64,000 nt of DNA, taken from contig NZ_JAMQCO010000003.1 in NCBI RefSeq assembly GCF_023702225.1, forward strand, positions 186,001 to 250,000. Reading direction: 5' to 3'. Made by a program: the position numbers and the translations under genes. The stretch comes from Aureimonas altamirensis (GTDB taxonomy: Bacteria; Pseudomonadota; Alphaproteobacteria; Rhizobiales; Rhizobiaceae). Positions 17,687 through 20,477 of the stretch are shown here, one piece after another. The notes under the pieces are model-generated. The model did no database searches. It saw only the letters and a list, made by a program, of their open reading frames with translations, and was not told the origin of the DNA. Position 1 is the stretch's first letter. The number at the start of each line of letters is the position of its first letter.

Positions 17687-18603
17687 CGCGTCCGCTCGGA
17701 TTTACCGGCAATCGGCTGTTCCGCGACAGCGAGAAGCGGGGCCCGGACAGCCTGCCGAACGCCCTGGCCGATCCGCGCCTGCGCATCTGCCTCCTGGCCG
17801 GACGGGCCTTCCTGGTGACCGGCGCGGACGATGCGCCCGATGCCTTCTTCGATCTTGCCGGGGCACAGGCGCTGGATGCCGCGCTGGCCGAAGCGGTGCT
17901 GCTGGGCCATCATCCGGACGATGGCGCTCCGGTCGTTGCGGCCATGGCGCCGACGCCGCCCGAAGGCGCGTCCGCCGTCCGCGCCATGGATCTTCGCGGC
18001 CTTGCCATGTCCGGCGCCCTCGGCGGCGATGTCGAAGGTACGCTAGGACAGGCGCAGCATCTTCTATACTGGAACGGGCGGACGCGGCATTGCGGTGTCT
18101 GCGGCGGGGTGACCCTGTCCGAGGCCGGAGGCTTGCGCCGGCGGTGTTCCGCGTGCGGCGAGATGTTCTTTCCACGCACCGACCCCGTCGTCATCATGCT
18201 GGTGCATGACGGCGCGGACCGTTGCCTCCTGGGCCGCCAGAAGCAGTTCCTGCCCGGCATGTACTCGGCCCTCGCCGGCTTCGTGGAGCCGGGCGAGACG
18301 CTGGAAGACGCCGTGCGGCGCGAAGTGCTGGAAGAATCGGGGCTGGAGGTCGGCGCGGTCGCCTATCACGCCTCGCAGCCATGGCCGTTTCCCGGGTCGC
18401 TGATGATCGGCTGCTTCGGCCGCGCCCTCGGCGATACGGTGCGCTACGACGCCGACGAGCTGGAGGATTGCCGCTGGTTCGACCGGGCAGAGGTCCGCGC
18501 CATGCTGGCCGGCGCGCATCCCCAGGGCCTCGGCGTTCCGAAGCCGTTTGCAATCGCCAACATCCTCATCCGGGCCTTCGCCGACGGAAGGGTGCCCGGC
18601 TGA
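17683..18603 (+). CDS. nudC: NADH pyrophosphatase / RNA de-NADding enzyme NudC
   Basis: 306 aa from a GTG overlapping the HIT gene stop. The order is an N-terminal NUDIX-like domain, a zinc ribbon (HCGVCGG then RCSACGEMFFPR), and a NUDIX domain with the box GFVEPGETLEDAVRREVLEES. A conserved SQPWPFPGSLMIG block marks NudC specificity for NAD(H). It cleaves NADH to NMNH and AMP and removes NAD caps from RNA. It is convergent with the kdsB-pheA fusion, whose stop abuts this one. Confidence 0.94.
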   Translation: MTRPLGFTGNRLFRDSEKRGPDSLPNALADPRLRICLLAGRAFLVTGADDAPDAFFDLAGAQALDAALAEAVLLGHHPDDGAPVVAAMAPTPPEGASAVRAMDLRGLAMSGALGGDVEGTLGQAQHLLYWNGRTRHCGVCGGVTLSEAGGLRRRCSACGEMFFPRTDPVVIMLVHDGADRCLLGRQKQFLPGMYSALAGFVEPGETLEDAVRREVLEESGLEVGAVAYHASQPWPFPGSLMIGCFGRALGDTVRYDADELEDCRWFDRAEVRAMLAGAHPQGLGVPKPFAIANILIRAFADGRVPG

Positions 18604-20208
18604 TCACTCTCCCGGCACGGTCGGCGGCGTTACCGGCCTGTCGTCCGAAGCGCGATAGACGCCGAGGATCGTCAGCCGCTTGGTGAAGAAGGCGAGTTCC
18701 TCCAGCGCATGGGCGACGCCCGTCTCGTCGGGATGGCCCTCGATGTCGGCATAGAACTGCGTGGCCGTGAAGGCCCCGCCGATCTGGTAGCTTTCGAGCT
18801 TGGTCATGTTGACGCCATTGGTCGCGAAGCCGCCGAGCGCCTTGTAGAGGGCGGCGGGCAGGTTCCGCACCTCGAACAGGAAGGTCGTTACGATCCGGTC
18901 CCCGCGCGACGCCCACAGTGCGCGGTCGCCGTCACCCTTTCGGGACAGGACCACGAAACGCGTGGTATTATGCTCTGCATCCTCGACGTTCTCGGCCAGG
19001 ATCTCCAGGCCGTAGAGCTCTGCCGCCAGCTTCGGCGCCAGCGCGGCGACGTGCATTTCCTGCATCTGGGAGACCATGCGCGCCGCGCCGGCGGTATCGG
19101 CCGCGACGATGCCGCGCCAGCCGTTGCGCCGCAGGATGCCGCGGCATTGGCCGAGGGCGTGGATGTGGCTGTAGACCTCGCGGATGTCCTGCGCCTGCGT
19201 GCCCGGCTTGGCCATAAGCTGAAAACGGATGGGCAGGAAGTACTCGCCCACGATCCTCAGACCCGATACGGGAAGCAGATGATGGATATCGGCGACACGG
19301 CCGGCGATGGTATTCTCGATCGGGATCATGGCAAGGTCGGCTTCGCCGCGCGTCACCGCGGTGAAGGCCTCCTCGAACGTATCGCAGGGCAAGGGCTCCA
19401 TGCCGGGATACATGTTGCGGCATGCCGTGTCGGAATTGGCGCCCGGCTCTCCCTGGAACGAGATCCGGTTGGTGCGGGCGGCGGATACGTAGAAGGCGCG
19501 CGCGTCCTCGAGTTGGGGCGCCGTATCCACCCCCAGGGGCACGGCCTTCACGATGGCGGCGTCGATCCGCAGACCCGCCTCCAGCGCGCGCAGCTGCTCG
19601 AGGCTTTCGCGCCGCTCGAGCGCCGACGGCCCCAGGGCCACGAAACGCTCGAGCGCGGCGCGTCGATAGGCATAGATGCCGACATGGTGGAACAGGGGCC
19701 CCTGCCCCGAAGGAGCCGTCGCGCGAGTGAAGTAAAGGGCGCGCAGCCTGTCCTCGGCGACGGAGCTGCCGACAAGCTTGACGACGCTCGGATCCTGCGC
19801 GTCCGCGCCCCCCTCGAAGGGCACCGCCACAGTGGCGATATCGCAGGCAGGCTCCAGCAGCGGCGACAATACGGCGCGAATCGTTTCCGGCTCGATGGTC
19901 GGAAGGTCGCCCTGGAGGTTCACGATCGTGTCGAAACCGCCGTCCGGGTCGAGCAGCGTCAGTGCCTCGAAGATGCGGTCCGAACCCGATTGATGGCCGG
20001 CCCCGGTCATCACCGCTTCGAATCCGGCGGCCCTTACGGCAAGCGCGACATCGTCGGAATCGGTCGCGACCACGACGGGGCCGACATTGGCGGCGGCGGC
20101 GCGCTCGGCCACCCGGACGATCATGGGCTTGCCGGCGATATCGGCGAGCGGTTTGCCGGGCAGGCGCGTCGAGGCAAGACGGGCGGGTATCAGAATAACT
20201 GGGCGCAT
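18604..20208 (-). CDS. kdsB-pheA: bifunctional fusion: CMP-KDO synthetase (KdsB) + prephenate dehydratase (PheA)
   Basis: One uninterrupted frame of 534 aa. Residues 1-250 are KdsB: N-terminal [38 protein letters not shown] and the terminal [12 protein letters not shown]. It activates KDO with CTP for lipopolysaccharide. Residues from about 255 are Phe[38 protein letters not shown], the TRF motif in NTTRFVVLS, and a C-terminal ACT domain ending with ESYQIGGAF for phenylalanine feedback. The junction reads [15 protein letters not shown], with no stop, ATG or ribosome site near it. In relatives these are two adjacent genes. I start at MRPVILIP. An upstream ATG at 20259 is possible. The 269-bp gap to the divergent cytochrome gene holds both promoters but no clear motif. 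Confidence 0.85.
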
Positions 20209-20477
20209 CGCTTCAGGACCCTGTGGACGAGGACCGTCCGGTTGTTTTTGCGTCCGCATCGCCGCAGCAATTGCTTGATCGGCGCGGCGGGCAATGTAAG
20301 AAGACTTCCAAGCTTGCGGCCCGGCGGTTTCGCGCAAATGCACCGAGACCGGCGATTCGCAAGCCCAGGGAGCGGTCTACAGGTGTTGCCTTGAAAGGGC
20401 AAAAGACATAGCTTCCGCGCGATTTTTAGAACCGTTCGTCGGTGCCGCCGCCGGCTGATGAGGGAGCCGCCCTGTCC

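Follow-up and report, generated by a model that had tools for sequence, protein, structure and literature searches.

Familiar enzyme fusions as a rule combine activities from a single pathway. In Aureimonas altamirensis, a CMP-Kdo synthetase (KdsB) and a prephenate dehydratase (PDT; PheA) are encoded by one open reading frame, which raises the questions of whether the join is genuine, whether the cell makes one protein or two from it, how it arose, and whether either enzyme affects the other. The frame lies within a 64,000-nucleotide stretch of contig NZ_JAMQCO010000003.1, referred to here as the window.

Architecture of the fused protein

The fusion gene opens with an ATG at 20208 and closes with a TGA at 18606-18604, giving 534 codons and a protein with a calculated mass of 57.2 kDa (Table 1). 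The original prediction of a single open frame across the KdsB/PheA junction was thus borne out, with coordinates, junction and mass (~57 kDa) all right. The N-terminal module (residues 1-242) matched the NCBIfam KdsB equivalog NF003948 with 371.6 bits, above its cut-off of 281, and also scored above the cut-off of TIGR00466 (192.3 bits; cut-off 155.2) and matched PF02348 (136.5 bits). Residues 245-524 matched the NCBIfam PheA equivalog NF008866 with 463.5 bits, again above the cut-off (359). Foldseek aligned the KdsB half to E. coli CMP-Kdo synthetase (3k8d, 46% identity) and the PheA half to a Phe-bound prephenate dehydratase (6vh5, 70% identity).

Table 1 Features of the kdsB-pheA locus (window positions; residues of the fused protein)
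Feature	Position	Strand	Extent and evidence
kdsB-pheA fusion gene	18604..20208	(-)	534 aa, one frame, common to 21/21 genus genomes
KdsB (CMP-Kdo synthetase) module	19483..20208	(-)	Residues 1-242; NF003948, PF02348, Foldseek to 3k8d
Inter-domain linker	19468..19488	(-)	Residues 241-247; AlphaFold2 loop connecting the final KdsB helix (230-240) to the first PDT strand (at 248)
PheA catalytic domain (prephenate dehydratase, PF00800)	18937..19464	(-)	Residues 249-424; PF00800, 197.4 bits
ACT regulatory domain (predicted)	18637..18894	(-)	About residues 439-524; 6vh5 alignment, NF008866, model

Both catalytic sets had been predicted to be intact, and the residues examined agree with this across the genus. 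The T416-R417-F418 motif of PheA, which we take to be the prephenate dehydratase motif (TRF) with the catalytic Thr, is invariant in 21/21 fused proteins, as are the KdsB CTP-loop/Mg residues R10, K19, D101 and D228. D101 and D228 were assigned their roles through the QGD and GVD motifs, by which they were matched to D95 and D219 of the Aquifex enzyme, two of the residues with CTP/Mg roles in the available part of its structural study (PMC3149649). At the C-terminus, the Pfam ACT model itself gave no match on the fusion protein at E 0.001. Retention of the ACT domain, as originally claimed, is nevertheless predicted from the span of the full-length PheA model NF008866 and from the alignment with Phe-bound 6vh5, which runs to the end; its limits were taken from the AlphaFold2 model and from where the NF008866 match stops. 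All 21 fused proteins keep the AALY and KLESY segments of this region.

The PheA half also aligned to the quorum-quenching enzyme GqqA (7am0, 52% identity by Foldseek), so we considered whether it could be a GqqA-like enzyme rather than a prephenate dehydratase. In Komagataeibacter, the PDT-like GqqA was found on one cloned insert with kdsB, as two separate ORFs, and it failed to rescue E. coli pheA mutants (PMC4879726, as far as its accessible text goes). Its resemblance to the fused module is, however, outweighed by the higher identity to 6vh5 and the score above the PDT equivalog cut-off, and a PF00800 scan found exactly one PDT per genome, always within the fused frame (21/21 genomes). We regard a GqqA-like function as very unlikely, although the failed complementation means that the PDT activity of the fused module should be read as predicted rather than assumed.

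In the AlphaFold2 model (28 sequences; mean pLDDT 83.9), the pTM of 0.56 means that the relative placement of the KdsB and PheA modules is not confidently predicted. According to the available text on Aquifex KdsB, the C-terminal segment lies in the CTP-binding domain and the dimer is built through the other domain (PMC3149649); by analogy, a partner attached at the C-terminus should leave dimer formation unhindered.

Two features flank or overlap the gene. A NudC-like NAD(+) diphosphatase gene runs convergently and ends at 18603, directly abutting the end of the fusion gene at 18604 with no spacer between the stops (TGATCA, 18601-18606). A 561-aa open frame also lies antisense to the fusion gene (18709-20394, (+) strand), and probably results from GC-rich codon usage.

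An open junction in 21 Aureimonas genomes

A genus search recovered the fused frame, with a stop-free junction, in 21/21 genomes of Aureimonas. Named records of A. altamirensis, A. fodinaquatilis and A. ureilytica are also fused, but are identical over the compared stretch to three of the 21 and thus add names rather than independent evidence. A base-call or assembly error at the junction, the outcome that would have undone the prediction, is refuted by these genomes: they are independent, the junction is open in every one, and most differ in their DNA. The probability left to such an error is negligible.

In the window, the span from the GVD motif of KdsB to the FQGE motif of PheA contains no stop, no in-frame ATG, GTG or TTG, and no Shine-Dalgarno-like word, in line with the predicted lack of a stop, start codon or ribosome site near the junction. 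Across the 21 genomes, this span measures 25 codons in 20 and 26 in one, and the linker has neither a stop nor a conserved start codon. Median pairwise omega (NG86 dN/dS), calculated for 20 of the 21 proteins (L096 left out), reached 0.94 in the linker (residues 237-246; 162 of 190 pairs usable), compared with 0.26 in the KdsB half (188 pairs) and 0.18 in the PheA half (186 pairs). Both halves are under purifying selection and the linker drifts almost freely.

A short, variable and nearly unconstrained linker could also mean that the frame is fused while the cell makes two proteins, either by proteolysis of the linker or by internal initiation in the message. A Shine-Dalgarno-like word does occur in the scanned junction span of 14/21 genomes. 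However, an in-frame start between GVD and FQGE exists in only two genomes (one TTG, one ATG), neither of which has such a word, and the window junction has neither element. The next in-frame start in the window lies 15 codons past FQGE, where initiation would delete the first PDT strand, nor is this start conserved: in L100 the first comes at +19, and L102 has none within the 30 codons scanned. Production of two separate proteins is therefore considered unlikely, and the uncut chain remains our preferred reading of the locus. If the chain does stay uncut, equimolar synthesis of both enzymes follows.

Takeover of one function by a duplicate enzyme elsewhere in the genome was also considered and rejected, with no second PDT in any of the 21 genomes and, by a TIGR00466 scan, a single KdsB above cut-off in 20/21, other matches falling below it. 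The exception, G005, carries a second, stand-alone KdsB (L105, G005:C2:627681-628418) with 58% identity to the KdsB half, which possibly serves another Kdo polymer.

Separate genes outside the genus

KdsB and PheA had been described as normally encoded by separate neighbouring genes in this order, and this was confirmed in 77/77 named loci outside Aureimonas, where the two genes are separate, adjacent, and in the same order and strand; the search favoured loci matching both halves. Searches covered 394 genomes of the family, 397 of the order and 289 of the class (sets that overlap in part), the class search listing 17 of its 289 genomes at E 1e-115. Among the matches listed that span more than ~350 residues, 0/143 junctions outside the genus were fused: a stop interrupts the junction in 142, and in the remaining one (G636) the two genes lie in different frames. 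These 143 junctions comprise 23 family-search loci and 120 further loci, genomes with only half-length matches falling mostly outside the sample. Stop counts alone were not trusted, since a stop within a match may be the terminal stop, as seen in the fused G007. In 120 separate loci checked (77 named, 38 from relatives that repeat the 23 family-search loci, and five from sister genomes), the kdsB frame never continues into pheA. The idea that the fusion is common elsewhere was accordingly rejected for the junctions and loci covered, and the search of sister genomes proposed at the outset placed the fusion in all 21 Aureimonas genomes and in none of the junctions checked beyond the genus. A fusion with a long linker or diverged sequence may exist outside the genus, beyond the matches listed.

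Two of the database entries recovered, titled Bacillus subtilis SK6B4 and Arenimonas sp. (L023, L078), carry a rhizobial-looking kdsB-pheA pair, and their titles seem wrong or their assemblies mixed. In one assembly (Rhizobium sp. G21; G370; L037 / L287), kdsB is apparently frameshifted near residue 199, which reflects a sequencing mistake or else a gene that is broken.

Probable origin from overlapping genes

A careful 43-row tree places the 21 fused proteins in a single clade (98/95). Seven genomes make up its sister clade (82/93), and support for the two together is 100/97. Support for the fused clade was 95/87 in a careful 41-row tree and only 48 in a quick 139-row tree. The fused rows also form one clade in a KdsB-only tree (98), and do not in a PheA-only tree because of two long-branch rows. 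These rows (L103 of G015 and L104 of G006) have a PheA half on a very long branch (1.06) that is seemingly longer in the middle, while their KdsB half falls within the fused clade; it is possible that the PheA half of these two genomes has been replaced or changed in function.

In the sister clade (L134, L147, L152, L156-L159), the kdsB stop and the pheA start overlap by 4 nt in 7/7 genomes; the overlap reads ATGA in six of them and GTGA in the seventh. Of the other separate loci, 8/113 could have an overlap of this kind, one of these being L037 with its frameshifted kdsB. The distance from GVD to QGE is 86-143 nt in the sisters, in all cases 2 mod 3 (n = 7), and 75-78 nt in the fused genes, 0 mod 3 (three genes measured).

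Taken together, we consider it highly probable that the locus encodes one bifunctional KdsB-PheA chain of independent modules, with a single origin by an indel across a 4-nt overlap and with PheA made by reading through kdsB. The N-terminal module would make CMP-Kdo for lipopolysaccharide, and the C-terminal module, with its ACT region kept, would convert prephenate to phenylpyruvate for phenylalanine. Joined by a tether of about seven residues, the two modules are expected to fold independently and most likely work as independent enzymes. The fusion most likely arose once, in the stem lineage leading to the genus ancestor, where kdsB and pheA would have overlapped by 4 nt, and a small indel, with a net length that is not a multiple of three and a net shortening, would have merged the frames and removed the start of pheA. 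We infer this route from the states seen in living genomes, for which it is the simplest account.

Since the fusion, ribosomes would have reached the PheA part only through kdsB. A stop arising in the linker would then be selected against through loss of PheA, so the frame would stay open even if the tether does nothing; with pheA lacking its own start, selection for PheA alone can hold the junction open and a benefit from the tether is not needed. The overlap in the closest relatives further suggests that coupled translation probably predates the fusion, in which case the fusion may have added little stoichiometric control.

An adaptive role of the fusion would instead have Phe bound to the ACT domain, or a mixed quaternary structure imposed when two oligomeric enzymes are tied together, tune KdsB and make CMP-Kdo synthesis Phe-responsive, linking lipopolysaccharide output to amino-acid supply. 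If true, a single protein would couple envelope construction to the supply of aromatic amino acids. The conserved AALY and KLESY segments, the match of the module to Phe-bound 6vh5 and the persistence of the intact fusion in 21/21 genomes are compatible with such a role. On the other hand, the loss of pheA's own start accounts for that persistence, the linker sequence is unconstrained, and, with a pTM of 0.56, the model gives no confident placement of one module against the other. No evidence in this analysis bore out the influence of Phe on KdsB that the original prediction had allowed in principle, and we judge both the adaptive account and a Phe-responsive KdsB to be quite improbable. The preferred model of two tethered, independent enzymes is directly testable, as it predicts one 57-kDa chain with equimolar activities, whether or not Phe affects KdsB.

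Comparison with known systems

No description of a KdsB-PheA fusion was found in the literature searched, as far as its accessible text goes. The Aureimonas fusion joins lipopolysaccharide and phenylalanine synthesis and is the sole source of PheA in every genome of the genus examined, while living relatives with the 4-nt overlap display the likely intermediate state. This makes it a clean case in which to ask whether loss of the downstream gene's start is by itself enough for a fusion to become fixed and to persist.

The nearest counterparts are the separate kdsB and pheA genes of many other Alphaproteobacteria, which encode the same two enzymes in the same order and strand but are divided by a stop and a start, either spaced apart or overlapping by 4 nt, where Aureimonas has one frame. 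Stand-alone KdsB enzymes (E. coli 3k8d, Aquifex 2y6p) share the fold and the CTP/Mg residues of the Aureimonas module and, unlike it, have no C-terminal partner.

The PDT fusions described in the accessible text of PMC11237513 have chorismate mutase as partner and, in some archaea, prephenate dehydrogenase as well. TyrA fusions have been discussed as clade markers (PMC1173090), and a fusion of chorismate mutase, PDT and prephenate dehydrogenase occurs in Archaeoglobus and Ca. Huberarchaea (PMC11237513). In the available portions of these papers, both are fusions of aromatic-pathway enzymes restricted to particular lineages. The Aureimonas case shares this restriction and marks its genus as a clade; the partners named in those papers are aromatic-pathway enzymes or ACT domains, unlike the KdsB of Aureimonas. 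Fusion of chorismate mutase to PDT is common among bacteria, according to the accessible text of the same survey (PMC11237513). In this P-protein (AroQ-PheA, chorismate mutase-prephenate dehydratase), PDT is likewise fused to another catalytic domain, but the partner acts in the same pathway, whereas the partner in Aureimonas makes CMP-Kdo.
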